Source of the DNA: a virus
IMG/VR virus record: IMGVR_UViG_3300025652_000110
Coordinates: 1-52,134 of that record
DNA length: 52,134 nucleotides
Strand: one strand, 5' to 3'
Positions 10,155 to 48,766 of the stretch are shown in pieces. A program made the translations under genes and the position numbers. The notes under the pieces are model-generated. The model worked only from the letters and a program-made list of their open reading frames with translations, had not been told where the DNA came from and did not search any database. The stretch's first letter is position 1; every line of letters starts with the position of its first letter.

Positions 10155-12377
10155 ATGCCAGATAAAAAAGGCCAACTAGGTTGGGAAGACTTAGAAGATT
10201 TTGGTAAATCCTTTTTTCAAGGTCATAGTGACTTTATGAATAAAGCGACGACAGATTTTTATGTTGATCCACCTAAAGAAGAAAAGCCATTAACCCCTTA
10301 CGGGCAAAGTCTTGTAGATAATCTATCTGAATTTGATAAACTAAATCCTTTTGATCCAACAGATTTAGGTTTATACACTGGAACCTCTCCAACTTTAGGC
10401 TTAGAGGCATATAATGAAGGTGTAGATTCAATGCTTGATTTAACTTTTGATGAGAACATTGTATCATCAACACCGTTTGATAATGGAATTACAAATACCT
10501 TAGATCCTCGGTATGAAGCACCAGTAACAGGAAGAAACTTTGATGGTCAAGAGTTTACATATGAAGATACTACTGACACATATGAAAGTGGTTTAGTAAT
10601 TCAAAACGCTACTTCTAAAGTAGGTGATGATGAAGATCAATTTCATATTGATGCTATGAATTATAGAGGTGATGACGAAAAAATGTTAGCGCTTCAAAAG
10701 AGTATAGTATCGAGAAAAGAAAATGGTGATGGTACTGTTACTTATAAATTTAATAACAGTCCTGGTTCTCATATGCAGGAAGCTTTAAGCGATGAGGCTG
10801 TACAAGAACAATCATCAATTGCAGCTGGCGTAGCAGCATTAGAGGCTCAAATATTAAGTATTAAGAATGGTACTTCTTTTGCAGCTCCTGGAGAATTGGA
10901 GCAACTAGAAGCTAAATTAACAGAAGAGAAAGCAAAATTAATAGTAGCAGATGAAGAAGTTTTAAAAGAAGAAGAAAATATTATAAAACAAGAAGAAGAT
11001 ATTGCATTGATTCAAGATGGTGAAACTACTGACGCTCAATTTGAAGCTGCTCCTCCTGCTGATCCAAAAGTTGTAGCTGAACAATCAGAAGAGGAAGCAG
11101 AAAAAAGTAACGCAGAAAAAGATAAGCTTGCTAAAGAATTAGCTAAGATAGATCCAAATGGTAAAGTTGACCAACAAATATTACGTAATCAAGTAGAAAA
11201 AGTAGATAAGTTGTTTACTAGCAAGAGTAAATATGATTGGGTAAATAGTATTAGGGCTTTTTATAAAGAAAATCCTGAGATTGCTACAGCTATAATTAAA
11301 GCTGCATCTAATTATTTACAAACAGGTAAATGGTATACCGCTGCTGCAGCTGGTTTAGAAGGTGCATTGCTTGGTGCTGGCACTAAGATAACTATGGATA
11401 ACAAAGATGCTGCTGACAGAGCAACTCTTAGAAACCAAGGTTATACTGGAGCTTCAGTTAATAAGTTCATGGTTACTAAAAATCCAGAAGATCTTGTATT
11501 AGATTTTACTAAACAAGAAAATGATTATGCTATATATCTTAGAAAGAAAGATATTGAAAATAAAATGGCACAATCTAAATCTTATTTAGAATGGTATCGA
11601 AAACTTACTCCAGCTAATACTGAATGGGCAGAAAAACAAACTGATTGGTTTGTTAATAATGCTAAAGGTATGTATGAAAAAATGGGTGAAGATGGAAAAG
11701 CTTTTGCTGAAATGCAATCTGCTGGCATAGAACACGGTGATGTTATGTCAATGATATTAGATTATGCTCATCAAAAGAAAGATGGAAAATATCTATTACC
11801 AAGAGGTCCTAACGGAGAGTACGATTTAAAACAAATACCAACAGAAGTTTTTAGAGATATGCAAAATATTGTTGAAAACTTTTCAAGACAACAATATAGA
11901 AATTATCAGATTAATGGTAAAGTTTTAGATACTAACTTTAACTTTGCTAATTACTATGATGAATATAAACTTCATACTAGTTTAGTTAATAACGATGCTG
12001 ATAATAACTTTGATCCTATTATGTTTCAAAGCTATACTAATAACCCAGAAGACGGTGAGTTTGCTGGTGAAGCAATGATGGCTGGTAGTAGTAATATTGT
12101 TGATCAAATATTTCAAGGTAAATTTGACACAAAAATAGATGGCAAGACTATGAAGCCTGAGAAAGAACAGGTATGGAAACAACTTGCTATTCAATGGGGT
12201 GCTTTGTCTCCAGAAGATAAAGAGGTTTGGAATAAAGCAGCTTTAGAAGAAGATGATATTGCAACAACTGGATTTTTATTTTTTGCAAATCAGTTAATAA
12301 CTGTAGGTGAAGGTCATGAATGGATGGCAAGTCGCAATATAAAATTATTTCAAGATCCAAATAGAGAAAACAAGTAA
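10155..12377 (+). CDS. Large internal virion/ejection protein
   Basis: 740 aa, strong SD (AAAGGAGG). The N-terminal 200 residues are acidic and low in order. A long charged coiled coil spans about 222-345. A hydrophobic stretch lies around 375-410 (IATAIIKAASNYLQ and YTAAAAGLEGALLGAG). The C-terminal 300 residues are alpha-helical. I see no lysozyme or transglycosylase motif. Position between the zipper protein and the nuclease-bearing protein marks it as a middle ejection protein (gp15-like place). Confidence 0.6.
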   Translation: MPDKKGQLGWEDLEDFGKSFFQGHSDFMNKATTDFYVDPPKEEKPLTPYGQSLVDNLSEFDKLNPFDPTDLGLYTGTSPTLGLEAYNEGVDSMLDLTFDENIVSSTPFDNGITNTLDPRYEAPVTGRNFDGQEFTYEDTTDTYESGLVIQNATSKVGDDEDQFHIDAMNYRGDDEKMLALQKSIVSRKENGDGTVTYKFNNSPGSHMQEALSDEAVQEQSSIAAGVAALEAQILSIKNGTSFAAPGELEQLEAKLTEEKAKLIVADEEVLKEEENIIKQEEDIALIQDGETTDAQFEAAPPADPKVVAEQSEEEAEKSNAEKDKLAKELAKIDPNGKVDQQILRNQVEKVDKLFTSKSKYDWVNSIRAFYKENPEIATAIIKAASNYLQTGKWYTAAAAGLEGALLGAGTKITMDNKDAADRATLRNQGYTGASVNKFMVTKNPEDLVLDFTKQENDYAIYLRKKDIENKMAQSKSYLEWYRKLTPANTEWAEKQTDWFVNNAKGMYEKMGEDGKAFAEMQSAGIEHGDVMSMILDYAHQKKDGKYLLPRGPNGEYDLKQIPTEVFRDMQNIVENFSRQQYRNYQINGKVLDTNFNFANYYDEYKLHTSLVNNDADNNFDPIMFQSYTNNPEDGEFAGEAMMAGSSNIVDQIFQGKFDTKIDGKTMKPEKEQVWKQLAIQWGALSPEDKEVWNKAALEEDDIATTGFLFFANQLITVGEGHEWMASRNIKLFQDPNRENK

Positions 12378-12393
12378 TTACTAGGAGAAATTT

Positions 12394-15300
12394 ATGGCTA
12401 TAGGACCTATTAAAATAGTTCTGCCGCAAAGTAAAGCACCTTCATTTGATATGACTGGGTTTGTAAATGCCGGTATGTATCAACAGATGTATGTAGACGA
12501 CGATGAAGAGCCTCGTGATTTTCGTTGGGAAGATGGTGACACTGTTTATGATGCTACTTCAGATGAGGGTTATAGATTCCTTGGTATGGATGCTCTTGAA
12601 ACTGATCACATAGGTCACTCTCCAAAACAAGGATTTAAATCTGGTGAGTATGGTGGTGACCTTCAAAAAAGAAAGTTTTATGAGTTAGCAAAGAAGTTAG
12701 GTTATAACAGACTCGTTAGAACAGGAAAAAAAGATGAACACAATAGATGGTTAACTGACTTGCAAAACGCGAATGGTGAATCATTTTCTACTTCTTTATT
12801 TTCTAACGATCTACTAACACCAAATAGATGGACCTCTGAAAGAGATAGAGATGCTTACGAAAGTAAACACTTCAACAGCTTGATGGGTATTGATACAACA
12901 ACAAATGAATGGGGTAAAGCAAAGTCTGAAATTGACGATCATTTTTCTAAAGGACTTTTGCTTGATAAGTTTGGAAGTCCATACATTAAAAAAGAAGCAT
13001 TAAATGAATGGCAATTAAACGAAGCTCAAATTAATTCTGAAATATATGGAATAGTAAATCCTTATCTTGATAGTTCAGTTAAGTATCGTCATGATGGTAT
13101 GGACCTACAAGGTAATGCTACTAACGTTTGGCGTAGTAGCCTTAGTCAGGGTTGGCAGAGTATGAGTGAAGCAGCTTCAGGAGCTAAGTCTTTAATTGGA
13201 AGTTTAATTGGTAATCAAGACTGGTACGAATCAGGAATGCTTACTGCTGAAGCAAAAGAAAACACAATGCGAAGGCTTCCTAAATTTGTTCAAAATATTG
13301 ATGACGTAGAATTTGGAGACAACGCTGCTGAATATATTATAGGTTTAGGCGGTGTGTCAATACCTTGGATGTTAGGTATCATTGGTGGAGGAGTTGTTGG
13401 TACTTTAGCTGTTGGAGCTGGAGCTACTGGTATTGCTGCTGCAGTTGGAGCTACAATAGGTACTACTCCTTTAGCTGCACTTTATGCTGGTGAAATCTTT
13501 AACAATATGGAAGGAGATATAAATAGCAAAAGCACTAAGGTAGCTTTATCTGGTGGTGTTATTATGTCAGTGTTAGATAGACTAGGTTTAAAAGGTATTA
13601 TGAGACCATCTCAAGTTATGGCAAAAGATGGAATGAAACAATTAAAAGCTCAGTTTACTAAGAAAAAGATTGATGAGATAGAGGCAGATCCAGGTTATGC
13701 TAAGCTTACTCAAGCAGAAAAGACTGCTAGAAAAGCAGAAGCTCTAAAGCAAGTTGACATACAAATCAATGCTGCAAAACTTTCAGGTGTTAATGACATT
13801 GTTAAAGCTATGGCTGGTCATGCTGATATACAAATTAAGAAAAGCTTATTGCTTAAAGAGTTTGGACAAGGCATGATGAAAGGTGGTCTATGGGAAATGG
13901 GAACCGAATCATTACAAGAAAGTACTAGTTATATTGCATCTGCATTTGGATCTGAAGCTGATTTTGATTGGAATGAATTTAAAAATATAGCAAAGAATGC
14001 TGCAGCTGGTGGTTTCTTAATGGGTTCTACAATTGGTGGAACTATGAGTGGCACAAGTGGATATGGATCTATTAAGAAGATGCAATCAGATTATGGCATG
14101 GCAACAAGTGATGCTGCATCTGGATTTTTTAATTATGCTCAAGATAAAGATGGTAATACTTTAGGTAATGCTGTGTCAGCTAATGGTCACGTTTATCCTA
14201 AGCCTATGACTGAAGAACAGTTTAATAATTCTGATCAGCGAGGTAATACTTGGGAACCTAAGTTAGTTGATGTTGAAGAGATTAATGAAGAAATGTTACA
14301 ACACTCTGATGTTAATACTTCAGAAGCACAAAGACAAGTTGATGAACAAGTTAAACTTGGAGAAGGTAAAGGTATTGAAAATGAAGATGGAGTTGTAGTT
14401 GGTAAGCTATCTCTATGGGAGAAGGCAAAGAAACTACCACGCCAAGCTTTCCAGAAGTATGGATCTATTATTGCTACAAAGAACTTGCAAGATCCAGATT
14501 TAAATGGAACTGCTAAGAGATATCTGTCTGCATTACTTCAAACATTTTCTCCTGCTAATATTGGTTTAGCGGCAGGTGTTGGTTTTCAAAAGATTAAAGG
14601 TAGATTAACTGAAGGCTATATGCAAGAAGCTAATAATCTTAAGTTAGCTTTGTTAAATACTGTTGATCATACTAATACAGCAAAAGGTAGAGCTGCTGCA
14701 ACTGAGAAGTTTAAACAGTTTGTAGATAGTAAAAGAGCCGTCCAACGAGGAGAGAAAACCGAGCAACAACATCGTCAACAGTTTGGACAGATGACAGCTA
14801 GGTTAGATCAGATTCATAACAGGATGGAAAGACTTACTGATGCTTTAAGAGATACAGTTAATAATAGTGTTGATGATATGAAAGATATTGGTAGAGTTGA
14901 AGATTGGTTTTTTAATTCTGCTAAACTAGATACATCATTAGTTTTAAAAGGTAAAGGTAGATTTATATCTGCGCTGCAAAGAGATTGGACTAATCCTAGA
15001 ACTGGTCAGGTTCATAAAGGTTTAAGCAAAGAAGCTGCTGAAAAGTTATATAACAGGTTAGTGTTTGATGGTAGAAGTCAAGAAGAAATTATTGATGATA
15101 TGTACCATGAGACTAAAGGAGCTGGTGCTGCAAAACAAAGGACACTAAATATTAATGATAATCCTATGATGCAGGAGTTTTTACACACAGATCATTTTGG
15201 AAAGTTAGAAACTAATATACATGACATGATTAACTATGCTATGGATATGAAATACCTAGGTCGTAATGATGTAAAACTAAATCAGATGATTCTTACTACT

Positions 15301-16803
15301 ATGAACCATATGAAGAAAGATGGTAAGTGGGATGCTAATATAGCAGCGACAGTTAGAAATTCTGTTGATACTCAAAGAGGTAGATACAAAGCTATTAAGA
15401 GTCAAGCACTTAAGAAAGCTCAGGACAATGTAACTTTCTTTAATACACTTACTCAACTAGATACTTCAATGCTAGCGTCACTACCTGAGTTAGCGTTGGT
15501 TATGGTTGGTGCTGCTTATAACAAAGGTTTAATTAATGTTATAAGACAAGGAGCTAGTGATGTTTTTAAACATTATGCTGGAACAGCTAGAACATCTAAG
15601 ATGAGATTCAAAGGCGCTAGTATGACAGATCCTGATTTAAAGGATGTCATGCCTACTCCTAGAATACTTAGACAATTTGATGGTAAGAAAATAGATAGTA
15701 AAAAAGATATTACTATTGAAGATATCAATATGAATAGATTAACCTTCTATGGTGGGCAATACGGAACACCTCATCATGGTGTACTTGGTGCTGTTGATAT
15801 TGATGCATCTGCTTATCAAGCCTCAAGGTTTAAACTATGGGTATTAGAATCATTCTTTCGTATGAATGGTCTTAAGTTCTTAACTGATGGTGCAAGGGTT
15901 GCACGTCTTGCTATAGCTAATGATGCTATTTTTAATGATTTAGAAATAATTCAGGGCTTTTATACTCCTGGAAAACTAAATAGTAATTTAGCTAATGATG
16001 CTTTTGAAAGATTAAGAGAATTAAATATCGATCCTATAAAAGCTGCAAGACAATTTGAAAAAGTAAATCAAGAAATTAAACTACTTCAGCAAAAGAAGAC
16101 TAAAGGTTTTCTTCCTGAAGATGGTGGTAAGTTAGACAGTAAAATCTTGCATGAGTATATATTTAAAAATCATGCTGAGCTTTACAATACTTTAGAAGAT
16201 GCTAGAATATCTTTTGTTGATAATGCGTTAGCAAGACCAACATCGATTGATAGACCTTTATGGTATTCTAATCCTCATTTTAGATTGCTTACTCAATATC
16301 AAGGTTTCTTATCTACGTTTACTGCTCATATAATACCTAAGCTATATAAGAGAGCTAAGAAAGCAGATCCAACACTTAGGTATCAAACTTTTGCTGTTGC
16401 TGCTACAATGTTAGCTCTTGCTTTTCTTGGTCAAGAAGCTAAAGATCAATGGAAGTTTGGTCATCATAGTCCTTATGTTGATACTAATCTTAAGACAGCT
16501 CAGCGAGGATTAAGTGCTTCTGGTTTATTAGGTACTGGACATAGGTTATTAGACTTTGTTCACCCAATATATACTAGTAGTCCAAGATATAATGAGACTG
16601 CGTTTGATCAGATGGGTAGATTTTTTGGTCATTCACTTGATGAGTTTGGTGGACCTACTGGTGGTACAATTAAAAATGCTCAACGCATAGCTGAAAATCT
16701 TATTGAGGGAAAACCTTCAACAGCTATTTATTATGGTAAAAATTGGATACCACTAATTGGTAGACATATGAAAGGTGACAAGCCTTATGAAATAGTATTT
16801 TAA
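12394..16803 (+). CDS. Giant ejection protein with N-terminal SNase-like nuclease domain
   Basis: 1469 aa, good SD. Residues about 43-135 match the staphylococcal-nuclease (thermonuclease) fold: E-D-G-D-T-V at 46-51, then Y-R-F-L-G-M-D-A-L-E-T at 60-70 and D-E-H-N-R-W-L at 114-120. Asp49, Arg61, Asp66, Glu69 and Arg118 correspond to SNase D21, R35, D40, E43 and R87, with the R-x4-D-x2-E spacing exact. Residues about 314-370 are a long hydrophobic Gly/Ala region, probably membrane-inserting. A further hydrophobic helix lies near 1333-1350. The C terminus (PLWYSNPHFRLLTQYQGF onward) has the look of conserved podoviral core proteins. It likely enters the host with the DNA. Confidence 0.75.
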   Translation: MAIGPIKIVLPQSKAPSFDMTGFVNAGMYQQMYVDDDEEPRDFRWEDGDTVYDATSDEGYRFLGMDALETDHIGHSPKQGFKSGEYGGDLQKRKFYELAKKLGYNRLVRTGKKDEHNRWLTDLQNANGESFSTSLFSNDLLTPNRWTSERDRDAYESKHFNSLMGIDTTTNEWGKAKSEIDDHFSKGLLLDKFGSPYIKKEALNEWQLNEAQINSEIYGIVNPYLDSSVKYRHDGMDLQGNATNVWRSSLSQGWQSMSEAASGAKSLIGSLIGNQDWYESGMLTAEAKENTMRRLPKFVQNIDDVEFGDNAAEYIIGLGGVSIPWMLGIIGGGVVGTLAVGAGATGIAAAVGATIGTTPLAALYAGEIFNNMEGDINSKSTKVALSGGVIMSVLDRLGLKGIMRPSQVMAKDGMKQLKAQFTKKKIDEIEADPGYAKLTQAEKTARKAEALKQVDIQINAAKLSGVNDIVKAMAGHADIQIKKSLLLKEFGQGMMKGGLWEMGTESLQESTSYIASAFGSEADFDWNEFKNIAKNAAAGGFLMGSTIGGTMSGTSGYGSIKKMQSDYGMATSDAASGFFNYAQDKDGNTLGNAVSANGHVYPKPMTEEQFNNSDQRGNTWEPKLVDVEEINEEMLQHSDVNTSEAQRQVDEQVKLGEGKGIENEDGVVVGKLSLWEKAKKLPRQAFQKYGSIIATKNLQDPDLNGTAKRYLSALLQTFSPANIGLAAGVGFQKIKGRLTEGYMQEANNLKLALLNTVDHTNTAKGRAAATEKFKQFVDSKRAVQRGEKTEQQHRQQFGQMTARLDQIHNRMERLTDALRDTVNNSVDDMKDIGRVEDWFFNSAKLDTSLVLKGKGRFISALQRDWTNPRTGQVHKGLSKEAAEKLYNRLVFDGRSQEEIIDDMYHETKGAGAAKQRTLNINDNPMMQEFLHTDHFGKLETNIHDMINYAMDMKYLGRNDVKLNQMILTTMNHMKKDGKWDANIAATVRNSVDTQRGRYKAIKSQALKKAQDNVTFFNTLTQLDTSMLASLPELALVMVGAAYNKGLINVIRQGASDVFKHYAGTARTSKMRFKGASMTDPDLKDVMPTPRILRQFDGKKIDSKKDITIEDINMNRLTFYGGQYGTPHHGVLGAVDIDASAYQASRFKLWVLESFFRMNGLKFLTDGARVARLAIANDAIFNDLEIIQGFYTPGKLNSNLANDAFERLRELNIDPIKAARQFEKVNQEIKLLQQKKTKGFLPEDGGKLDSKILHEYIFKNHAELYNTLEDARISFVDNALARPTSIDRPLWYSNPHFRLLTQYQGFLSTFTAHIIPKLYKRAKKADPTLRYQTFAVAATMLALAFLGQEAKDQWKFGHHSPYVDTNLKTAQRGLSASGLLGTGHRLLDFVHPIYTSSPRYNETAFDQMGRFFGHSLDEFGGPTGGTIKNAQRIAENLIEGKPSTAIYYGKNWIPLIGRHMKGDKPYEIVF

Positions 16804-16817
16804 TATAGGAGATATGT

Positions 16818-19800
16818 ATGGCTAAGAGTGGTGGTTACAAAAGCTCAGCTAACACAAAGAAAGATTTAAAGAAAGCTCAATTTGATATGTCAGGTGTATT
16901 TTTTGAAGCGCCTACTGTCAGAGAACAATCTAATATTGTAAGAAAACAACAAGCTTATGGTCAGAATCTAGACCAAAAGAGTGAAATGGAAATGCAGATA
17001 GCTCAAAAAGAAGCTGAGGTTGCTGGATTACAAAGAGCTCAACAAGGTCAAAACGTTTCAAGTGAAGATCAATTAAGAGGTCGTAAGTCTAGACTTGAGT
17101 TGCAAATGCTCAATCAAAATTATAATAAACTTAATGAAGGTTTATTAGATGATGTATATGGAGGAACCCAAGACACTGTTGGTGAAATGGGTTCTCCAAT
17201 TGTCGATAATACAGTTGAACCTGTACCTACAATTACACCTCAAAGAGAGTTCCCTACTCCTGAACAGGCTGTAGGAACCACGACAACGCCCGAGATCAGA
17301 CCTTTAGGCACAGGCCCTGCTGCTACTATTGGTGGTGGAGATACTAACGTATCAAGTGCTGCAATAATAAATGCCATAATGAACAAGCCAGAAGAGGATA
17401 GAACTCCTGCTGAATGGCAAGTGCTTGCTGATCTTGCTCCTGAAGTTTATGATAGTAATCAAGCAGCTGATCGTGAGACTGTTGATGATGATCCAGATAG
17501 TCCAGACAGACCAGGAAAAATTAGTAAAGTTCAAATACCTTATCAACAAAAAATGCAATTGATGCATGACAGTCATGCGATGGGTAGAAGAGTTGAAGAA
17601 CTCTTAGATCAATTTGCTTATGATGATATGGGTAGTGCAGAAAGAAGGCAAGAGATGATGAGACGTATCAATGATGGTACGTTTGAAGTAGAATCTGTTG
17701 CTGATTTCTTTGAAGGTATATTAGCTACTCATGAGGAATTAAAAAGATTAGGTGCACCTAGTGCTTTATCTGATGTTGCTTTACATTCTGTCTTACACCA
17801 AGTAAGAGAGGCTTATAAAAGAATAGGAGAACCTGACGATAGAAGAGGTAGACAACAAGCAATTGATGAATCTAATATAGCACCTACAACAGAAGAAGAA
17901 GCTGCAACAGCTCTTGTTATGCGAGGGCATGAGGTTCGTGAAATAGGTAATAAGATATTAGAAGCAATGGGAGTTAAGCCTGATGCTAATAATGTTAACT
18001 CTACTATAGCTGGAACAATAGCTAGAGACCTAGTTGTCAGAGCATTTCCTAATTTGTTTGTGAAAGATCTTAAAGGTAATATTCAAATATCACAAGACGG
18101 TTTGACAGTAGCAGAAAAAATGTTACCAATGACTCAAACAATTTTGCCACATACAAAAAACAATGTTAGGTTAAATAAAAAACCTAATGCAAGTAGTACT
18201 GTTAAACCTAGATCAGGAGCTAAGTTAAGACGAACTGCTACTGGAGCTGCTACTGATATTGACTATGGAAACTATGATTTAGTAAATGATACAATAGATA
18301 TTCTTGATAATATAGGATATACAATTGATCAAGATATGGTTAACATTGTTAATGCTTTAACCCAATCAATGGATGCTAATGGAAATACTAACATTGACAA
18401 ACTTATTGGTACAGGAAAAGAAGACACTGGTACATTAAATGATAGATCTGGATCTCGTAAAAAGAAAGATCCTAAAACTGGCAGAGATATTATAGGTCCT
18501 GACGGAGAACCAGTAATGGAATGGTATGCTGGAGATCGAATCAAAGATGTTATCTTTAACGACAATATGGATTGGGCTCAAAATCTAGGTAATAATGTTT
18601 TTTATTACGATCATTTTTTAGGCGATAACAATAGATTTTATATATCTCAATTCACTGGTAACTATCACAGTCATAAGCTTGTTAGAGCTATGATTATGAG
18701 TGATCGTATTGAAATGTTTAGTGTTGATAATGAAGCTTCATTAAACGAACTCAAAGCTGGTATTGTTAAAAAGTTTGGACATAATGTTGGGGTTGCTGAA
18801 GCAGCAAGAATATTTGATGCTAATGCTAAAGCATGGTCTGATATGATTATGAAAGTCAGAGAAGACGGTCAACCTATAATTGATTTAGCTGCAAAAGAAG
18901 ATGGATGGGATAGTGTAAGTGCTATGGTTGAAGCAACAAAACTTCATCAACACTTAGAAGGTTTAAAGAACGGTACAAAGACTGATCCAATATACACAAC
19001 TAAGTTTATGACTCATGTTGATGGAACAGGAAATGGACTTGCTCATAATGCTATGCAATCCGGTGATTTTAAAACAGCTGCTTTAACTAATATCAATCCA
19101 AGATTTAATGCACCTGAAGGTGAAGCTAGAATGCATTGGGATTCAGCTAATCCTTTGAACAGTGATGTGTACCATCTTACTGGTTCGGGTATGACAGCTC
19201 AAGTTGAGAAGAATCAAAGTGCATCATCTGCATTTGTTAAGCAAGCTATTGTTGCTTTAGGTCTTGATGATAAAAGAAACATGAGACAATTTTCTAAAGC
19301 TCCACTAATGATATTTCAGTATGGAGCAGGTAGAGCGCTTATTAAAAAGATTGTTAAAGAAAATATATTAATAGCGCTTGAAGAAGATGCTGCTACAGCT
19401 GCTGCATTTAATCAAATTGTTCTTGATATGGGAGGTAATGCTTTAAGTCAGAGTGAAATTAAACAAGCTATTAAAGATGGAGTGTTTGAGGATTCTGGTC
19501 AATTCAGAGACGCAGACTTTATTATCGACCAAATGGGAGATATGATGGTTAAGTCTGTTGAGACTCAATTTCCTATGCTTAAGAAATTAAGTAACATATT
19601 ATCTTCTATGGCTAATGCTGCTGCATTACATAATCCACCTATTGATTTATCAGTTATTACTATTGGTGGTCATAGGTTAAATTTTGGTTTGGCTAATTGG
19701 GAAACAGATAGACTTAGATCTTTTATAGATGAGACAAGTGGTTTAGATTTTAGTCCTGCTCAAAAGATATTGTATCCTCAAGGTACAAAAGTCTATATGA

Positions 19801-20438
19801 AAAATAAGGCTACAGGTAAAAACATTTCTGTTAAAAATACTAGCGGACATTTAATGCCTAATCCTAATTTCAATCCTGAGTTTCCAGTACATGATATAAA
19901 AAATCCTAAGTATGTACCTCTTGGTAGTCTTAAATCTGCAACACAAGCTGCAGTACTTATGACTCACTCATTAGACGGTATCAATGTTGCTCGATCTTTA
20001 GGTGCTTGGAATCAGGACAAACGTCATATGAGTATAGCTCAAATCTTTGATGGATTTTTAGTAAGCCCTAAGCACGCTCGTGAGTTTGCTGCAAGGTTAA
20101 ATAAAGACTTTTTAGATATACACCTTGATAAAGGCGGTAGATTTAGAACTACTGGAGACTTCATGAAAGATTTAACTGATGTTGAAAAATTTCAACCAGG
20201 TCAATCTCATTATGATTTCTTATCTAACAATCCTGCTAATAGTAATGTTCTATTAATATATAGAGCAATGGCTCAAAAAGGTTTTAATTGGGATGACTAT
20301 AAAGGCAAAGGTCTTATCAAGTTAATCAAAGAGTTTGAGGCAGATAGAAAGAAATTTAGAAAACAATTTATGATAGACTTCAAGAAAACTGATTCTGAAT
20401 ACAATTATAAAGCTGTTAAACAATTCTTTTGGGATTAA
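16818..20438 (+). CDS. Probable virion-associated single-subunit RNA polymerase (N4 vRNAP-like)
   Basis: 1206 aa, good SD, last gene of the ejection cluster. The N-terminal 300 residues are low complexity. The region from about 580 to 1100 carries the T7-family RNA polymerase signatures in order: a D-N-N-R-F-Y element (R606; T7 D-x-x-G-R region), motif A V-D-G-T-G-N-G-L-A-H (D735, G740, H743; T7 D537, G542, H545), motif B R823-x3-K827-x7-Y835-G836 (T7 R627, K631, Y639, G640), an H-S-L-D-G element (1050-1054; T7 H-S-Q-D-G) and motif C I-F-D-G-F (D1078; T7 D812). T7 has His before that Asp; here it is Phe1077. Total size is close to the minimal polymerase domain of N4 vRNAP. Packaging is inferred from gene position and from an N-terminal F-D-M-S-G tag shared with the preceding ejection protein. 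Confidence 0.78.
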   Translation: MAKSGGYKSSANTKKDLKKAQFDMSGVFFEAPTVREQSNIVRKQQAYGQNLDQKSEMEMQIAQKEAEVAGLQRAQQGQNVSSEDQLRGRKSRLELQMLNQNYNKLNEGLLDDVYGGTQDTVGEMGSPIVDNTVEPVPTITPQREFPTPEQAVGTTTTPEIRPLGTGPAATIGGGDTNVSSAAIINAIMNKPEEDRTPAEWQVLADLAPEVYDSNQAADRETVDDDPDSPDRPGKISKVQIPYQQKMQLMHDSHAMGRRVEELLDQFAYDDMGSAERRQEMMRRINDGTFEVESVADFFEGILATHEELKRLGAPSALSDVALHSVLHQVREAYKRIGEPDDRRGRQQAIDESNIAPTTEEEAATALVMRGHEVREIGNKILEAMGVKPDANNVNSTIAGTIARDLVVRAFPNLFVKDLKGNIQISQDGLTVAEKMLPMTQTILPHTKNNVRLNKKPNASSTVKPRSGAKLRRTATGAATDIDYGNYDLVNDTIDILDNIGYTIDQDMVNIVNALTQSMDANGNTNIDKLIGTGKEDTGTLNDRSGSRKKKDPKTGRDIIGPDGEPVMEWYAGDRIKDVIFNDNMDWAQNLGNNVFYYDHFLGDNNRFYISQFTGNYHSHKLVRAMIMSDRIEMFSVDNEASLNELKAGIVKKFGHNVGVAEAARIFDANAKAWSDMIMKVREDGQPIIDLAAKEDGWDSVSAMVEATKLHQHLEGLKNGTKTDPIYTTKFMTHVDGTGNGLAHNAMQSGDFKTAALTNINPRFNAPEGEARMHWDSANPLNSDVYHLTGSGMTAQVEKNQSASSAFVKQAIVALGLDDKRNMRQFSKAPLMIFQYGAGRALIKKIVKENILIALEEDAATAAAFNQIVLDMGGNALSQSEIKQAIKDGVFEDSGQFRDADFIIDQMGDMMVKSVETQFPMLKKLSNILSSMANAAALHNPPIDLSVITIGGHRLNFGLANWETDRLRSFIDETSGLDFSPAQKILYPQGTKVYMKNKATGKNISVKNTSGHLMPNPNFNPEFPVHDIKNPKYVPLGSLKSATQAAVLMTHSLDGINVARSLGAWNQDKRHMSIAQIFDGFLVSPKHAREFAARLNKDFLDIHLDKGGRFRTTGDFMKDLTDVEKFQPGQSHYDFLSNNPANSNVLLIYRAMAQKGFNWDDYKGKGLIKLIKEFEADRKKFRKQFMIDFKKTDSEYNYKAVKQFFWD

Positions 20439-21810: not shown

Positions 21811-22761
21811 TTACCAACCCCATTCTCCGACCATACCAACGGTAGAGTAATCTGTCACTGTCTTTTCAAAGAAGTTACTCAATGAATCTCCAGATGTAAG
21901 ATCTTCTACCCAAGGTAAAGGATTAGTTTTTACTTTAAAGTTTCCTTTAAAGCCTAGTTGAATTAATCTTCGATCAGCTAAATATTTTATATAATTTTTA
22001 ACTTCATCCTTATCTAAGCCGCCAACATCACCAGCTGCATAAGCAAGATCAATTACTTTTTCCTCTAACTTAACTACTTTTCTAGCCATCTCATATATCT
22101 CTGACTTGAATTCATCAGTTAGAACTCTACTATGCTCTGTACAGAACTCTCTAAACAACTTACTCATTCCTTCAACATGGAGAGTTTCGTCTCTTATACT
22201 CCATTCTATAACAGTTCCCATGCCTTTCATCTTACCACGTCGTTGGTAATTTAATAGCATAGCAAATGCTGAGAACAGAGTAACGCCTTCATTAAATACA
22301 GATAACGCTAATGACTTAGCTAGCCCATGATGACTATTAACATCTGCATCTCTCATGAAGTCGGTCTTGTTTACCATTTGTTTATATTCTAAAAACGTAC
22401 TGTATTCTTTTTCATGTAAACCTAATGTATCATTTAGTAATGCATAAGCTCTTTGATGAATACCTTCTCGCGCAGAGAATGATAACAACATTGATCTTAT
22501 TTCATTATTAGGAAATTTAGGTATATAAAAGTTACAATAGTTTTGAGCCACAATAACGTCAGCTGAGGTAAACAACCTAAGTATAGATATGATATGTTCT
22601 TTTTCCACATCAAGCAACTCTCCGTTTTTCCATTGAGTTACGTCTTCAGCTAGGTTTATTTCTTTTTCTGTCCAATGTATATCCTCATGTTGCTCGGCTA
22701 ATTCTATAGCCCAAGGAAATTGGAACGGTTTAAACACTATATTTTCTTCCATTAACGTCAT
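21811..22761 (-). CDS. nrdB: Class Ia ribonucleotide reductase small subunit
   Basis: 316 aa. It provides the tyrosyl radical for reduction of ribonucleoside diphosphates by the large subunit encoded just upstream (4-nt gap). The di-iron ligands and radical Tyr are all present at the spacings of E. coli NrdB: Asp68, Glu99, His102 and Tyr106 (E-x2-H-x3-Y), Glu158, Glu192 and His195 (D84, E115, H118, Y122, E204, E238, H241). It is a short version of the family (E. coli 376 aa). The C terminus, which contacts the large subunit, ends GEWGW. Supplies dNTPs for phage DNA synthesis. Confidence 0.95.
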   Translation of the reverse strand: MTLMEENIVFKPFQFPWAIELAEQHEDIHWTEKEINLAEDVTQWKNGELLDVEKEHIISILRLFTSADVIVAQNYCNFYIPKFPNNEIRSMLLSFSAREGIHQRAYALLNDTLGLHEKEYSTFLEYKQMVNKTDFMRDADVNSHHGLAKSLALSVFNEGVTLFSAFAMLLNYQRRGKMKGMGTVIEWSIRDETLHVEGMSKLFREFCTEHSRVLTDEFKSEIYEMARKVVKLEEKVIDLAYAAGDVGGLDKDEVKNYIKYLADRRLIQLGFKGNFKVKTNPLPWVEDLTSGDSLSNFFEKTVTDYSTVGMVGEWGW

Positions 22762-22765
22762 GATA

Positions 22766-24547
22766 TTACCCCTCGCATGCTAAACATTCATCTTCAGCTG
22801 CATCGCCAATAGCTATTCTATCTACTTGTTGGCCGACATTTTCTGCTACTTGTGTACTAGATGTACGTAGATAATATAATGTTTTTAGTTTCTTGTTAAA
22901 TGCACTTATGTGCACACTGTTTACGTATGATTTATCAGATCCAGCTGGGAAGAATAAGTTTACACTCTGTGATTGACATATATATACTTGTCTATCACTT
23001 GCATGTTGAACTACCCAGTGCTGATCTAACTCAAACGCTGTTTTGAATACATCTTTTTCCCAATCAGTTAAGTAATCTAGTTGTTGTACAGATCCTTGAT
23101 GGTGACCGATGTTGCGCCACTCAGCTTCTAACCAATCTAAATCTTTACCTAGTCTTAACCTATGTTCTTCCATTACCTCTTGCAGGTGTTTGTTTCTAAT
23201 AAGATGCGATCCAACTCTTGTTTTATGAATAAAACTATTTGATTTAATAGGCTCTATCGATGGTGAGGTTCCAATTATCATTCCGCTATTTGCATTTGGC
23301 GCTATAGCTAATAGATGACTGTTCCTTTTACCTGTTCCTCTGCCATACATATATTCACTTTTAGTTTTACATAAATCTTTAGTAGCTTTTAATGCATGCT
23401 GCTTTATATAAGCAAACATCATTTTGTTTTGACCGACTGCCATAGCAGATTCCCATGGTATACTTTTTGATTGTAAGTATGAATGAAAACCCATAGCACC
23501 TAGTCCTAAAGATCTTTCAGTAAGAGCTGATGATGTAGCCTTAAATAAAGCTGGCTGCGGAGCGTGATCAATGAACTGAGTTAGTACATTGTCTAGCATT
23601 TCTATAAGATCTTCTACTATTGTAGAGTCTTTCCACTCATCAAACTTTTCCAAGTTTAGACTACTTAAGCAGCATACTGCTGTTCGATCAGAGTTTGTTG
23701 GTAATGTTATCTCAGCACAGAGGTTACTACCTTTTATTTCTAATCCCTTTTTCTTAAGAGGTTCAGGCAATTTTCTATTGCTCTCATCGATGAAGTGAAT
23801 ATACGGCTCACCTGTCCTAAACCTAGTCTCCAATATCCTTTCCCATAACTCACGTGCGCGTACTGTATCACGGACTGAGCCGTCATGAGGATCGATAAGA
23901 TCCCAATCACTATCACTTGAAACACTATCCATAAAATTATCAGTAATATTGACAGCATTATTAATATTAAAACACTTACGATTTGAATCACCACCTGAGG
24001 GAATCCTGATATTAAGGAACTCAATGATGTCCGGATGGCTGATATCCAAGTATGCTGCATAACTTCCCTTTCTTGTTTGTCCTTGTTTGTAAGCAGTCAT
24101 TGCTGAGTCTGCTACTTTAATAAATGGTATTGGTGATGGAGCTTTATCACTAACAGCTCTAACATCTGACCAATGACCGCCAACTCCTCCACCTTTCACT
24201 GATAGCCATGCTAACTCTGATTGGTGGTCTATAAGACCTTCTAGCGTATCAGGAACGTAATTTAAAAAGCAACTGATAGGTAGACCAAGGGGTGTTTCAC
24301 CTGGCATAGGGGCATTACTTAATATTGGGCTGCTAAACATAAACCAACTGTTACTTACCCCGTCATACAATCTTTGAGCTAGTTTTTTGTTACCATTAGA
24401 ATAGGCAATACAAGCTCTAGCATAAGCTTCTTGTGGTGACTTTTCTTTACCTCTAAGGTAGTGAGCTTTCAATAAATCAAAAGCTTGATCTGTCATTTGC
24501 TTATCTTTAGCTCTATCTATTTGTATTCCTAAATAATTACTCTTCAT
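22766..24547 (-). CDS. nrdA: Class Ia ribonucleotide reductase large subunit
   Basis: 593 aa, ATG overlapping the upstream stop (ATGA). Catalytic alpha subunit. Visible family elements are P-I-S-C-F-L-N near residue 90, the glycine-rich G-G-G-V-G-G-H-W segment, N-L-C-A-E-I-T-L-P (active-site Asn/Cys/Glu), A-P-N-A-N-S-G and the C-terminal redox Cys pair E-C-L-A-C-E-G that accepts electrons from a thioredoxin or glutaredoxin. At 593 aa it is much shorter than E. coli NrdA (761 aa) and lacks the N-terminal ATP cone, so dATP inhibition is probably absent, as in many phage enzymes. No thioredoxin gene is visible, so host reductant is likely used. Confidence 0.95.
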   Translation of the reverse strand: MKSNYLGIQIDRAKDKQMTDQAFDLLKAHYLRGKEKSPQEAYARACIAYSNGNKKLAQRLYDGVSNSWFMFSSPILSNAPMPGETPLGLPISCFLNYVPDTLEGLIDHQSELAWLSVKGGGVGGHWSDVRAVSDKAPSPIPFIKVADSAMTAYKQGQTRKGSYAAYLDISHPDIIEFLNIRIPSGGDSNRKCFNINNAVNITDNFMDSVSSDSDWDLIDPHDGSVRDTVRARELWERILETRFRTGEPYIHFIDESNRKLPEPLKKKGLEIKGSNLCAEITLPTNSDRTAVCCLSSLNLEKFDEWKDSTIVEDLIEMLDNVLTQFIDHAPQPALFKATSSALTERSLGLGAMGFHSYLQSKSIPWESAMAVGQNKMMFAYIKQHALKATKDLCKTKSEYMYGRGTGKRNSHLLAIAPNANSGMIIGTSPSIEPIKSNSFIHKTRVGSHLIRNKHLQEVMEEHRLRLGKDLDWLEAEWRNIGHHQGSVQQLDYLTDWEKDVFKTAFELDQHWVVQHASDRQVYICQSQSVNLFFPAGSDKSYVNSVHISAFNKKLKTLYYLRTSSTQVAENVGQQVDRIAIGDAAEDECLACEG

Positions 24548-28641: not shown

Positions 28642-29379
28642 TTATTTAACAAACGCTTCTTGCTGAATAGATTGACCAAAGAAATCAATCATTTTAACAA
28701 TTTCGTCTACATCGCGTTCGTATATATGTAGACTATCAGCACTAAAAGTCAGTTGACCCAAACTTAAATTTGGATATACTGGTTTTAAGTCTTCTAGCAT
28801 TTTTTCCATTAAGTAGCAAAACCAAGGTAAATCATAAACAGGACCAGTAAAAAGATCTGCTGATCTCATTCTTACTGTTGAATATAATTGATCTTCACGT
28901 ATGTGAAAGTTTTGATACATAGTACATACAAAATCTTTTGGATTTAACTTTGCATGCTTGGCTTTATTGTAACGACAAATAGCTTGTCGAGTGTCTTTAT
29001 CTTTTTTCAACGCTTTTAAAGCAAACCAGTAAGGCGTAGTATAAAATTCAGTACGATCAAATAAAGTTATATGACCATAATTAGAATTTATTTGACCTTC
29101 GTCATCTTCTATAGTTTTCCAGAAATCACTTGGAGCAGAATCTGCTGCAGTATTACCTGACAAATACCATTCCAATTCACGTTCTGTGTAACTTTCTATA
29201 ATTTTATTACGCTTTTTATCTTCAGTTACAATAGGTTTACTGCTTGGATTGTTTATTGTTACTTGTACATTTAATTTTTCTCTGATAGCCATATCTCGTG
29301 GCTTGGATTTAAAATCCCATTTAGCATATACATGCCAAAGCATTTGATTGTAAGCATCAGATATAGTTGTTGCTTTCAT
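28642..29379 (-). CDS. Thymidylate-synthase-fold enzyme, probable dCMP hydroxymethylase
   Basis: 245 aa. The fold is clear: nucleophile Cys152 (F-V-C-T-M-Y-Q), R-S-A-D at 172-175 and H-I-Y at 218-220. In thymidylate synthase the residue 31 after the Cys (E. coli N177) reads the uracil ring; T4 dCMP hydroxymethylase has Asp (C148, D179). Here that position is Asp183 (V-Y-D-L), exactly 31 after Cys152, predicting dCMP rather than dUMP as substrate. Length equals that of T4 gp42 (about 246 aa). The product would be 5-hydroxymethyl-dCMP (or 5-methyl-dCMP) for incorporation into phage DNA. MazG-like and DUF1599-like neighbours fit. dUMP specificity cannot be excluded without assay. Confidence 0.75.
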   Translation of the reverse strand: MKATTISDAYNQMLWHVYAKWDFKSKPRDMAIREKLNVQVTINNPSSKPIVTEDKKRNKIIESYTERELEWYLSGNTAADSAPSDFWKTIEDDEGQINSNYGHITLFDRTEFYTTPYWFALKALKKDKDTRQAICRYNKAKHAKLNPKDFVCTMYQNFHIREDQLYSTVRMRSADLFTGPVYDLPWFCYLMEKMLEDLKPVYPNLSLGQLTFSADSLHIYERDVDEIVKMIDFFGQSIQQEAFVK

Positions 29380-29391
29380 TATAGCTCCTTA

Positions 29392-29781
29392 TTATTTTTC
29401 TTTTATAAAATCACCTACTTCATTTAAATGACCTTTACGATCTTTTATTTCGTTATAAGCAGATGAAACACAACTAAATAAATCTAAGCCTTGTAATTCA
29501 CACTGCATAACTAATGTTACCACAATATCGCCTATAGCGTCGATTACTTCATCTGTGTTATTTGTATTAACTGCTTCTAATAATTCATGACATTCCTCAA
29601 GAGTTTTAATAGCTTGAGTTATTGGAACACCATTCGTTGTAATTTTTCTATCACGACCCCATATTGCTATCATAGCAACTACATGATCGAGTCCTAACCT
29701 TTGTTCTAAATCTAGTTTTACTTTTTCTTCTACAGCCTCTTGTAATGGTTCTGAGGGCATATCTATTATAATTTTTCCCAT
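29392..29781 (-). CDS. MazG-like nucleotide pyrophosphohydrolase
   Basis: 129 aa, SD GGAGT. All-alpha NTP-PPase of the MazG/dUTPase superfamily: K-T-L-E-E-C-H-E-L-L-E (Glu63, Glu66) and D-E-V-I-D-A-I-G-D (Glu78, Asp81, Asp85) supply the Mg-binding E-x-x-E and E-x-x-D pairs. It would hydrolyse a (d)NTP to the monophosphate and PPi. Next to a putative dCMP hydroxymethylase it could remove unmodified dCTP or make dCMP, but MazG proteins also act on ppGpp or dUTP, so substrate is inference. Confidence 0.8.
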   Translation of the reverse strand: MGKIIIDMPSEPLQEAVEEKVKLDLEQRLGLDHVVAMIAIWGRDRKITTNGVPITQAIKTLEECHELLEAVNTNNTDEVIDAIGDIVVTLVMQCELQGLDLFSCVSSAYNEIKDRKGHLNEVGDFIKEK

Positions 29782-30334: not shown

Positions 30335-32770
30335 TTAACAAAAGAAATAGTCAGAATACATTAACTCTTTTAGATCGAGTTTTCCTTTTCTAGGTTCTGC
30401 TTCTGTAAATAATGGATCATTACTAATAATCTGACTTCTCATATCTTTAAATATATTCTTATCGTATATGTCAATAAATGTTTCTTTTGTTATATGTAGT
30501 AACTCAGGTACTTTTTCAGCATGAACACTAAAACTATCGTGTATAGCACCAAAGGATAGTATGCCTGATTTTTCAAGCTCTACAATAACTAATGACATAT
30601 GTGCTGCATCCATAGAATGCACATAATTAGGACTAATTCCTGATATCATTTCGTGCATTGCTGGACGTGTTGTTTGCTCATGAACAACGACTTGTATCCT
30701 ACCCTGTGTAAATGGTAGTTCTACTTTCTTTTTGTTCATAATCCACTTTTCGGACACACAAGGAAAGCCACTAGGACTCATCCAGCATACCGTATCTTCA
30801 TTTTGTTTGTCTACCCTATGCTTGACTAAGGCTTGTAAGTAATTTTTAATAGAAACAGGACCAGAACAAATTGCATTATAAGTCTGTACAAGATCTTTTG
30901 ACAGCTTTTTAGCTATTGTTTTTGTAATTCCGTACTTTGTAGTCATACCAGCGTCATAGCAGTCCATGTATATGATATCTGCTATACATTTAATACCAGC
31001 ATCATAAGCTTTTGTCATAGTTCCACGTTTACTAATACCTTTTCTGATCAGTTTCATCGGTATTTCTGCTAGTATTTTTCCTAAGTCAGTACCGACATTT
31101 CTATTAAGAATTCCTTTCGCTACGATTATATAAAAGTCAATTGGTTTTTCTTGTTCCATAAGTCCAACCATTCGACCAGCAACTTCATCTTTAGACATTG
31201 CAGCGAGGTGTTGAGTGCCATTAGATGAACCATCAATAGCTATTGGTAACTGTGAATAATGTTCTTCATCAGTTAATAGTGATCCATGATAAGCACATAT
31301 TTCAAAACATATAGATAAGAAAACCCAAGGTTTTTCTGCAGCCATCCAAATGTCTTTTGTTGCTATTGGATCTTCTGCTATATTCCAGAATAATTCAGTA
31401 TTTTCTTCAGACCATTTTTGTCTATCTTCTAATGACATTTTATCTACAGATAAGTCTGGTATACCGTCAACAACAAGATCACTTACATAATTTGTTTTAG
31501 TCCATTCTAACTTTTCTAATTCTTTAATAGTATATGATTGGTTATAACTATTAGCTGCATGTATTAATAAATATTTAAAACCAGTTTCGGTAACTAATTG
31601 TTTTTCTGCGAATTGTAAATGACCTCTTGCTAAGTCATTAGATTGATACGAAAAGTATGGATCTCGTGCATACACTCTACCACGAAAGTCTAAAAACATA
31701 GATAAGTAAAATGTATAAGACGCCCAACCATTAGGACCATGTATACTATTTAATATAGCATGATTGCGAGCTGCTTTTGATTGTGTTGCTAAGCATAATT
31801 GTTTTGCTGTCCACATAAGATTATGTTTGTCAAACAATTTGTTAAGTTTATTAATTTTCCGCAAGCATAATCTCATAGCTTTGCCATCTTTTTTAAGTGT
31901 ATTCTTGCGTTTTTCTTCTTTATTTAAAGCGTCTTCAATTGTCTTAACTGTTGTTGAATTGCCTTTATCAGGTTCAAATAATGATCCATTTCTATATAAT
32001 TTTGTATCTTTATATATTTTATTTATATTTTCTCTACGTATATCTTTTGCATCGAATTCTATTTCTGATCCATCTTCTGTTTCTAATTTAATAATTGTTT
32101 CTGTTAATTTATTTTCAAGTTTTTCACTTATCTTAGCTACGTTAGCATTAACGCACCATTTTACTTTTTCTAATCGATTAACTGCTTTTACATAATCTGA
32201 ATATTGATCTATTTCTTTTATAGAGCTTTTTATTAGTCGATCTTTAATACCATCAACCATTCTAGTATTCTTTCTCCAGGCAGGATATTGATGTCTTGAT
32301 ATACCTATTCTTTCTTTTTCATCTAATACAATATTTCCATATTTGTGAGCCATTTCTAAATGATACGGCTGCAACCTAACTTGTTTCTTCTTACCTTTTT
32401 CCATAATTTCTTCTATTGTAAAGAAAGGTTCTCGTGTTAATATTAAATACTCTTGATCGATAAGTGCATTTAATATTAAACAACCAAGTTTCATTTTAAG
32501 TACTATGTTTGCATTTTCAATTGCTAAATGTTTTACACATATTTCACCAACATTCATATTAGTGTTTGTCAACATTATTTTGCCTTCATGTCTTTGAAAT
32601 GTTGATGTTAAATAATTAAATGTTTCTTTAACTATGTTAACCATTCTAAAGTCGTCACGCAGGCAATTTGCATTTCTTATTTCTTTAACAGCAGAGTTGT
32701 TATTATTACTACTTCCGCTTTGCATTATTCTTTCTTCTATTGACCAAACTATTTCTTGTACGTTATTCAT
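30335..32770 (-). CDS. T7-type single-subunit DNA-directed RNA polymerase
   Basis: 811 aa. All T7 RNA polymerase elements are present: D-F-R-G-R-V-Y, motif A A-I-D-G-S-S-N-G-T-Q-H (Asp513), motif B S-K-R-G-T-M-T-K-A-Y-D (Lys581, Tyr589), N-Y-V-H-S-M-D and motif C I-H-D-S-F (His744, Asp745), ending S-D-Y-F-F-C like the T7 C-terminal foot. After Tyr589 the usual Gly is replaced by Asp-Ala-Gly. About 70 residues shorter than T7 (883 aa). Made early, it should transcribe later classes from phage promoters such as the 21-bp sites at 30314 and 40421. Primase lies 1 nt upstream. Confidence 0.95.
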   Translation of the reverse strand: MNNVQEIVWSIEERIMQSGSSNNNNSAVKEIRNANCLRDDFRMVNIVKETFNYLTSTFQRHEGKIMLTNTNMNVGEICVKHLAIENANIVLKMKLGCLILNALIDQEYLILTREPFFTIEEIMEKGKKKQVRLQPYHLEMAHKYGNIVLDEKERIGISRHQYPAWRKNTRMVDGIKDRLIKSSIKEIDQYSDYVKAVNRLEKVKWCVNANVAKISEKLENKLTETIIKLETEDGSEIEFDAKDIRRENINKIYKDTKLYRNGSLFEPDKGNSTTVKTIEDALNKEEKRKNTLKKDGKAMRLCLRKINKLNKLFDKHNLMWTAKQLCLATQSKAARNHAILNSIHGPNGWASYTFYLSMFLDFRGRVYARDPYFSYQSNDLARGHLQFAEKQLVTETGFKYLLIHAANSYNQSYTIKELEKLEWTKTNYVSDLVVDGIPDLSVDKMSLEDRQKWSEENTELFWNIAEDPIATKDIWMAAEKPWVFLSICFEICAYHGSLLTDEEHYSQLPIAIDGSSNGTQHLAAMSKDEVAGRMVGLMEQEKPIDFYIIVAKGILNRNVGTDLGKILAEIPMKLIRKGISKRGTMTKAYDAGIKCIADIIYMDCYDAGMTTKYGITKTIAKKLSKDLVQTYNAICSGPVSIKNYLQALVKHRVDKQNEDTVCWMSPSGFPCVSEKWIMNKKKVELPFTQGRIQVVVHEQTTRPAMHEMISGISPNYVHSMDAAHMSLVIVELEKSGILSFGAIHDSFSVHAEKVPELLHITKETFIDIYDKNIFKDMRSQIISNDPLFTEAEPRKGKLDLKELMYSDYFFC

Positions 32771-43606: not shown

Positions 43607-43620
43607 CGGAGAGAGAGAGT

Positions 43621-47767: not shown

Positions 47768-48766
47768 TTGGCAACAACGTTTACAACGGCAACGAACGCG
47801 GCGAGCAACCGCGAGGATCTTGCGAACTTTATTTCTAATATTGTTCGTGATGATACACCGTTTATGTCCTCTTGTGGTAGAACAAAAGCTACAGCAATTT
47901 TACATGAATGGTCAACTGACGAATTACAACCACCAGCAGCGAATAATAACGCTGAGGGCGCGGCCTTCCCAGGCACACCTTCAACTGGTCCAGTTGTAGC
48001 TCGTTTAAATAACAAAACACAAATCTTTACTAAGTCGATTGAAGTTTCAGGTACTATGGAAAATGTATCTAAAGCAGGTCGTAAGTCTGAATTTAAATAT
48101 CAGTCTGAAAAACGTGGTAAAGAATTGATGCGTGATATCGAGTGGGCATTAACAACTGGTAAAGGTGTTAAGTCTTCTTCGGGTAACCGTGTTATGGGTG
48201 GATACCAATCTTGGGTGAAGGCAGCTAATACTGTTAACGCTTCAGGTGGTTCAATCACTAACGGCGCGGGAGATGGTTCTAACGTTCCTACATCAGCAGG
48301 TACTGCAGCAGCATTTACTTTATCTCAAGTAGATCAAGTAATGCAAGCAGCTTGGGAAAATGGCGGAAGACCTACTACTCTTATGATGTCACCACGTCTT
48401 AAGCGTAGCTTCTCAACAGCAGCACAAGGACAAGTTTCTAATGGAAACGTTCGTCGTAACATCGACGAGTCTGGTAAGCTTCGTCAATCAGTAGAGATTT
48501 ATGAAACTGATTTCGGAGTTGTACAAGTAGTTCCTAACTACATCATGGGTCATACTGGCTCAGGTGCGGGTGCAGCTAACGCAGCAGCTGATGATAATAT
48601 CTTAGTATATGATTCATCAATGTTTAAGATGGCAACACTACGTCCATTACACCACAGAGATATCTCTGAAGATGGTGATAGACTACGTGCGCTAATGGTA
48701 CATGAAACTACTCTAGAGTGCTTGAATCCAAGTGCTTCTGGTCTAGTTGACAACCTAAGCGGCTAA
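47768..48766 (+). CDS. Major capsid protein (DUF5309-like)
   Basis: 332 aa. TTG start at 47768 with AGGAG 6 nt upstream; no ATG nearby. The N-terminal N-R-E-D-L-A-N-F-I-S-N-I-V-R-D-D-T-P-F and the later G-G-R-P-T-T-L-M-M-S-P pattern match DUF5309-type HK97-fold capsid proteins. Codon and base use are slightly richer in G/C than neighbours, as expected for a very highly expressed gene. A strong terminator follows directly. Confidence 0.85.
   Translation: MATTFTTATNAASNREDLANFISNIVRDDTPFMSSCGRTKATAILHEWSTDELQPPAANNNAEGAAFPGTPSTGPVVARLNNKTQIFTKSIEVSGTMENVSKAGRKSEFKYQSEKRGKELMRDIEWALTTGKGVKSSSGNRVMGGYQSWVKAANTVNASGGSITNGAGDGSNVPTSAGTAAAFTLSQVDQVMQAAWENGGRPTTLMMSPRLKRSFSTAAQGQVSNGNVRRNIDESGKLRQSVEIYETDFGVVQVVPNYIMGHTGSGAGAANAAADDNILVYDSSMFKMATLRPLHHRDISEDGDRLRALMVHETTLECLNPSASGLVDNLSG

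Follow-up and report, generated by a model that had tools for sequence, protein, structure and literature searches.

A probable ejection protein in a group of marine short-tailed phages begins with a predicted staphylococcal nuclease-like domain

We identified a protein of 1469 aa that very probably belongs to the virion and is ejected, and whose residues ~35-155 almost certainly form a divergent staphylococcal nuclease (SNase) domain of the OB-fold type, as judged from homologues and a predicted fold. It is encoded on a viral contig 52,134 bases long, the whole of which is referred to here as the window (Table 1). The reading as an ejection protein follows from the homology of its core, the match to PHROG 6958, a hydrophobic region and the neighbouring genes. 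A group of marine short-tailed phages may therefore deliver a nuclease along with their genome. To our knowledge, podoviral ejection proteins carry either a transglycosylase, which breaches the wall, or a polymerase for transcription (N4 vRNAP), and an ejected nuclease would, if the reading is true, be a third kind of cargo. Such delivery would also leave to be explained how the particle keeps an enzyme that cuts DNA alongside its packed genome.

Table 1. Features of the window discussed in the text (aa, amino acids)
Feature	Position	Strand	Evidence
Upstream protein of 740 aa, probably a second ejection protein	10155..12377	+	same place as CRP-7 gp35
AGGAGA, likely ribosome binding site	12383..12388	+	read from sequence; 5 bases upstream of ATG
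Probable ejection-type protein with N-terminal SNase-like domain, 1469 aa	12394..16803	+	ORF; full-length relatives
SNase-like domain, residues ~35-155	12496..12858	+	domain-profile match, AlphaFold elements, Foldseek
Codons D49-T50	12538..12543	+	invariant 12/12
Codon R61	12574..12576	+	invariant 12/12
Codon D66	12589..12591	+	D in 7/12, N/S/W in 5/12
Codon E69	12598..12600	+	invariant 12/12
Codon R118	12745..12747	+	invariant 12/12
Putative conserved ejection-protein core without SNase	12943..16800	+	homology to LUZ24-type virion structural proteins
Hydrophobic stretch rich in glycine, residues ~316-366	13339..13491	+	Kyte-Doolittle scan
Downstream protein of 1206 aa, RNA-polymerase-like in part, probably a third ejection protein	16818..20438	+	PF00940 E 1.4e-7, phrog_414 E 8.1e-12
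Ribonucleotide reductase large and small chains, thymidylate synthase (PF00303), MazG-like gene	21811-24547 and 28642-29781	-	
T7-like RNA polymerase, full gene	30335-32770	-	PF00940 E 7.9e-69
SU10-type portal	43597-45792	+	PF23899 E 8e-124
SU10-type capsid	47768-48766	+	PF17236 E 2.4e-80
SU10-type adaptor	49130-49924	+	PF24175 E 1.4e-12

The nuclease-like domain and its conserved residues

Twelve SNase-bearing proteins were compared: that of the window, gp34 of Roseobacter phage CRP-7 and ten from IMG/VR. L006 and L018, near-copies with zero branch length, were both counted, while L034 and L020, whose proteins are identical to those of L032 and L018 respectively, were excluded, and re-cuts of counted contigs (L004, L005, L007, L009-L016, L019, L025, L027, L028 and L033) were left uncounted. 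L008 encodes a full-length relative of the window protein with 68% identity.

The original prediction had placed an SNase domain at the N terminus of this protein, and homologues, profiles and predicted fold agree on it. It had delimited the region 12394-12798; the match to our domain profile, which includes the window domain as one row, runs from 12496 to 12858 and so ends ~60 bases further on. On its own the window domain falls below every Pfam, NCBIfam and PDB sequence threshold, so that the earlier reading by eye outdid single-sequence search; a direct PF00565 search likewise matched none of four records. The relatives are more informative. PF00565 is the only Pfam match of the L008 domain (E 5.2e-4, 20.9 bits against a cut-off of 21) and is matched about as well by the L032 domain (E 6.1e-4, 20.7 bits, same cut-off) and weakly by L029 (E 0.035) and L026 (E 0.082); the domains of L003, L006, L031 and CRP-7 gave no match in this search. 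L008 also matches the NCBIfam thermonuclease NucI, far under its cut-off (E 0.005), and the Phaeobacter plasmid thermonuclease WP_096740437.1 (E 2e-4). When the PDB was searched with a 7-row profile drawn from two clades, the top match was S. aureus nuclease at E 0.14; once L008 and L026 had been added, a profile again of 7 rows gave a thermonuclease as top match at E 3.7e-4, and a ten-row trimmed profile again placed a thermonuclease on top (E 2.7e-3). Profile-profile comparison with three thermonucleases gave P 95.0 and then P 96.3 (E 1.9e-9). One comparison thermonuclease was Bumble gp57 (117 aa), an annotated nuclease with PF00565 that had initially been matched at E 0.3. Thermonucleases are thus the best or only family found by the relatives and the profiles.

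Other candidates fell away. The profile with L008 and L026 added matched RSC8 in two weak pieces of 8.9 bits, the ten-row profile matched the light chain of coagulation factor X-activating enzyme weakly (E 0.64), and a match to Gordonia phage Fazel (E 0.6) lies on the strand opposite the annotated genes and was taken as chance. No consistent rival fold emerged from Foldseek or from the PDB sequence searches.

The SNase fold is a five-stranded OB barrel with three helices. Structure prediction had been proposed as a check of the domain. Two AlphaFold models, one from 5 sequences (pLDDT 62, weak) and one from 10 sequences (pLDDT 73.5), reproduce the SNase succession of strands and helices; in the second, strands are predicted at residues 29-34, 41-47, 50-53, 59-62, 70-73, 106-113 and 119-124 and helices at 88-101 and 131-137. 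The three best Foldseek matches of the first model were SNases, as were all 50 PDB matches listed for the second (best E 3.5e-3, prob 0.96), and predicted topology and Foldseek together point to an OB-fold of the SNase type. VIA-align superposed the second model on 1snc with Z 5.5 and an rmsd of 4.1 over 98 residues, which is modest alone. Across both models this program scored SNase at Z 5.5-6.4 and the Tudor chain 7oc3 on par, at Z 5.8-6.5; as extended Tudor domains include an SNase-like fold, we do not count the latter match against SNase.

The catalytic set claimed for the domain, D49, R61, D66, E69 and R118, is present with the local spacings R-x4-D-x2-E and D-x3-R as described; D114 is also there, and D49 sits in DGDTV. 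All five residues align with the matching columns of PDB SNase. We take D49-T50 to correspond to D21-T22 of S. aureus SNase, R61 to R35, D66 to D40, E69 to E43 and R118 to R87. The wider spacings are unlike those of that enzyme, with 12 residues from D49 to R61 and 49 from E69 to R118, against what we take to be 14 (D21-R35) and 44 (E43-R87). In shuffles of this protein R-x4-D-x2-E alone turned up in 1092 of 5000, so that this motif by itself proves nothing; the loose five-residue pattern occurred in 49 of 5000 (~1%) and the five-residue pattern including DGDT in none of 5000. The shuffles and the homologues found through the core alone rule out a chance motif, and it is homology between the sequences, not motif occurrence, that is the real evidence for the domain.

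Fifteen of 106 domain positions are invariant in the 12 proteins (D47, D49, T50, V51, D53, R61, A67, E69, G88, L98, A99, G111, R118, F131 and L135), a set that includes four of the five catalytic residues (hypergeometric P 0.0013, with positions treated as independent). The sole variable catalytic position is D66, the one of the five whose loss costs SNase least; it is replaced by N, N, N, S and W in one subclade (L026, L029, L030, L031 and L032) that retains the other catalytic residues. The family as a whole therefore does not keep the full catalytic set, and the metal site of this subclade may be altered. Next to R118, all 11 other relatives have Y-G, presumably the site of Tyr85-Gly86 in SNase, and in the window these residues are H116-N117.

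In seven within-clade pairs the dN/dS of the domain is 0.03-0.09, several of the dS values exceeding 1. Five of these pairs have a lower value for the domain than for the remainder of the protein, and two have a slightly higher one (L029-L030, 0.091 vs 0.079; L017-CRP7, 0.056 vs 0.049). For the window and L008 the values are 0.23 for the domain and 0.29 for the rest. Of all 100-residue stretches of the protein, 51-150 is the most conserved between the window and CRP-7, with 36 identical and the next best stretch at 31. Within the marine CRP-7-like lineage the SNase domain has been inherited vertically and is kept by purifying selection; it is probably catalytically active in the window phage.

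Relatives, core and neighbouring genes of the fusion protein

Among 50,697 phage records, CRP-7 was the only match to the ORF at E <= 1e-3. The match is confined to query residues 44-149 (37.6% identity, E 2e-8) and leads to gp34, deposited as a 'hypothetical protein' (QBQ72827.1, 1368 aa); profile alignment extends the likeness to 1160 columns (hhalign P 99.4, E 4.4e-21). CRP-7 gp34 has the same architecture of SNase and core and also lies between two large ORFs, the upstream one lysozyme-like, but its domain is divergent and its downstream neighbour, gp33, is unrelated to that of the window. Scans of IMG/VR found L003-L007 and L008. When the C-terminal ~324 residues were used as the query, with the domain excluded, seven loci on seven contigs were found, one of them on the contig of L008, and an SNase-like N terminus is present in all six others. 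All loci found through the core thus carry the SNase, which makes it a constant feature of the lineage. No relative emerged from the 221 pattern matches of a domain-based contig scan, and a related-locus search with the whole window protein and a megablast of the first 25 kb returned nothing useful.

The original prediction held that no standard podoviral core protein with this domain was known. For the literature this still stands: no published fusion of an SNase with an ejection protein was found within a limited paper collection, and no word beginning with 'nuclease' occurs in the available passages of the ejection-protein review (PMC8954989), the SU10 paper, the phiGT1 paper or the CRP-7 paper. 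The available passages describe transglycosylases in the ejection proteins of T7 and SU10 and, in the CRP-7 paper, ORF30 as an RNA polymerase. The architecture is nevertheless shared by CRP-7 gp34 and the ten IMG/VR proteins. Both the SNase family and the core family are known, and the fusion is already in the databases as the unnamed CRP-7 gp34. With S. aureus Nuc and the SNase/thermonuclease family (PF00565) the window domain shares its predicted topology, DGDT, R-x4-D-x2-E and D-x3-R; unlike thermonucleases, it forms the first ~155 residues of a phage protein of >1300 aa. With a thermonuclease as query, 151 phage records were matched; the named ones among the matches listed are annotated endonucleases, nucleases or hypothetical proteins. 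Another large phage protein, A0A6J5NQ80 of an uncultured Caudovirales phage (1342 aa), is named 'Staphylococcal nuclease (SNase-like), OB-fold'; it was found by the first domain model with a weak structural match (E 0.15) and is known here by its annotation.

The claim of an ejection-type core behind the nuclease domain is supported by homology to LUZ24-type virion structural proteins. The window core matches phrog_6958, 'virion structural protein', at E 3.1e-15, and past residue ~200 it is similar to proteins annotated as 'virion structural' or 'particle' in LUZ24-type phages of Pseudomonas and in Vibrio phages. Compared with the SNase family by hhalign, tf gp51 (1021 aa) gave P 99.2 (E 1.2e-19), PaP4 gp53 (1055 aa) P 98.6 and NV1 gp45 (1057 aa) P 98.5, with alignments of ~806-855 columns that begin at residue 202-204 of L032, whereas KIT05 gp21 (P 97.5) and Vibrio phage 1.262.O gp27 (P 92.3) aligned across their C-terminal parts. 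Every blastp match of the 12 family members to tf gp51 and KIT05 gp21 starts past the SNase domain. These LUZ24-type proteins (PHROG 6958 for tf, PaP4 and NV1) share the core and start about where the SNase part ends; in a domain-profile search of the five core relatives the SNase domain was absent, four scoring <=0.3 bits and tf gp51 being unlisted. For LUZ24 itself, the available text of the tf paper cites nine virion proteins from mass spectrometry, and gp50 is not named in that text (PMC3517423).

In a tree of 17 core proteins, for which the program flags long branches, a single branch with 100/100 support splits the 12 proteins with the domain from the five without it; KPP25, whose gene spans the record start, was omitted. 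The SNase was therefore gained or lost once. Our reading of the direction is a gain by the marine lineage. The nearest cellular relatives of the domain in the plasmid and phage collections searched are thermonucleases of alphaproteobacterial plasmids, a likeness compatible with acquisition from Roseobacter-type hosts. So clean a split makes this an instructive example of how an enzyme module joins or leaves a probably injected protein.

The hydrophobic stretch is the sole region of the 1469-aa protein above the Kyte-Doolittle threshold, and a single glycine-rich hydrophobic region was found in all five proteins checked (window, L008, CRP-7, L003 and L006); it is a candidate membrane-inserting segment. 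Pfam found no transglycosylase in the 1469-aa protein, and its N terminus is not of the T7 gp16 type.

Upstream of the SNase-bearing gene, the N terminus of CRP-7 gp35 is Pesticin/lysozyme-like (PF16754 E 3.6e-6), while the window 740-aa protein showed no muralytic domain or other family match in Pfam, PHROG and NCBIfam, and a PDB search with its family gave nothing. Downstream, the RNA-polymerase-like match is also found in L008, L026, L030, L031 and L032 and partially in L029; in a Pfam scan of single proteins the region was found in L032 and not in L030 or L031. No such match was found in the CRP-7 clade, where gp33 (L001 23988-27695, + strand) is not detectably related to the window 1206-aa protein (hhalign P 0.1%). 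An RNA polymerase as a cassette member in all relatives is thereby refuted, and the third cassette gene may have been exchanged. With the RNA-polymerase-like pair as query, a contig scan returned the contig of L008 only and a PDB search nothing.

Possible role at entry

Taken as a whole, the explanation that we rank first, an SNase ejected with the genome that attacks host DNA, can be believed or doubted about equally. As the LUZ24-type relatives and the lysozyme-like and RNA-polymerase-like neighbour genes suggest, the protein would sit in the virion and exit either together with the DNA or ahead of it. It would be threaded out unfolded and refold at the envelope, and the hydrophobic segment would insert into the inner membrane. 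A capsid nuclease must be kept off its own genome; the SNase would be active only after refolding, once metal is available, so that the packaged genome would be spared, and it would cut nucleic acid outside the ejection channel. Its target would be host DNA, with a very early onset of breakdown and shut-off of the host genome while the phage uses its own RNA polymerase; that host DNA is the main target is a tentative choice, falling a little short of an even chance. If it is true, the attack would predate gene expression, and in one line of the lineage the SNase would adjoin a co-ejected RNA polymerase. The proposal in its most complete form, an active virion SNase that attacks host DNA before phage gene expression, replaces endonuclease I and is inactive beside the packaged genome, is rather doubtful.

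Endonuclease I of T7 takes part in host-DNA breakdown. We compared 16 records, with the contigs of L017, L018, L020 and L034 outside the comparison. T7 endonuclease I (PF05367) matched none of the ten SNase-bearing records and five of the six SNase-less ones, three above the cut-off and PaP4 and NV1 below the curated cut-off, a contrast confounded by phylogeny, the two groups being also two clades, and one in which most of the ten SNase-bearing records are fragments. The one SNase-less record with no endonuclease I match was KPP25 (L036). An RNA_pol match was present in 10/10 SNase-bearing and 0/6 SNase-less records. The pattern, confounded as it is, hints that one host-DNA-breaking tool was swapped for the other, SNase for endonuclease I.

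Classical SNases depend on Ca2+, of which the cytoplasm contains little; this favours a periplasmic site and speaks against the best explanation. The SNase might instead stay in the periplasm, as the N-terminal enzyme domain of T7 gp16 does, use Ca2+ from seawater and destroy the DNA of superinfecting phages or plasmids, giving instant superinfection exclusion. Its position N-terminal to the only hydrophobic stretch would suit this, since T7 gp16, likewise a large ejection protein, is described in the available text of the review as carrying its transglycosylase before the membrane-inserting part (PMC8954989). The topology is, however, drawn by analogy with T7 gp16, whose enzyme cuts peptidoglycan whereas that of the window is of the nuclease type, and the absence of endonuclease I suits host-DNA breakdown at least equally. 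Mg2+ is also preferred by some SNases, according to the available text of one report (PMC3585158). We regard periplasmic destruction of rival DNA as unlikely and rank it second, after host-DNA attack at entry and ahead of a dead fold.

A dead SNase fold serving as a binding or plug module, like Tudor-SN proteins, would accord with the loss of D66 in 5/12 members and with the VIA-align score of the Tudor chain, but D49, R61, E69 and R118 are invariant in 12/12, dN/dS is low, and loss of D40 costs SNase far less than loss of R35, R87 or E43; we consider this decidedly improbable. Trimming or nicking of the incoming genome end, or release of the DNA from the ejection channel, has very little probability in our estimate: the domain would be close to the leading genome end if co-ejected, but SNase lacks sequence specificity. 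The DNA of the related phage tf has localized nicks, as the available text of the tf paper states (PMC3517423), yet tf is without the SNase domain. RNA might also be the target, since SNase-family enzymes such as MAG_5040 cut both RNA and DNA in the available account (PMC3585158), and degradation of host mRNA at entry would bring about shut-off. Nothing specific favours this, sequence cannot reveal the substrate, and we hold it hardly probable. Host-DNA attack and its alternatives can be put to the test, as CRP-7 and its host FZCC0042 have been isolated and the domain is small enough for expression and assay.

Other genes of the window and its relatives

The virion of the window phage appears to be a mosaic, with a LUZ24-type ejection core together with SU10-type portal, capsid and adaptor. 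In addition to the separate, clear T7-like RNA polymerase, the 1206-aa RNA-polymerase-like protein may be a virion RNA polymerase outside the N4 group, unusual in its size. In L029 (8991-13180, + strand) the corresponding gene consists of three overlapping or adjacent frames, either a genuine break or a sequencing error, and in L030 it is a single frame of 1395 aa. The ribonucleotide reductase, thymidylate synthase and MazG-like genes of the window make up a nucleotide supply set. The B12-dependent ribonucleotide reductase of CRP-7 (L001 7384-10002, + strand) is annotated as two CDS separated by another ORF, possibly an intron or insertion. In L026 (10819-11283, - strand), a 154-aa ORF with cysteine pairs, HNH-like by eye and possibly a homing endonuclease, adjoins a gene that by eye is ribonucleotide-reductase-like.
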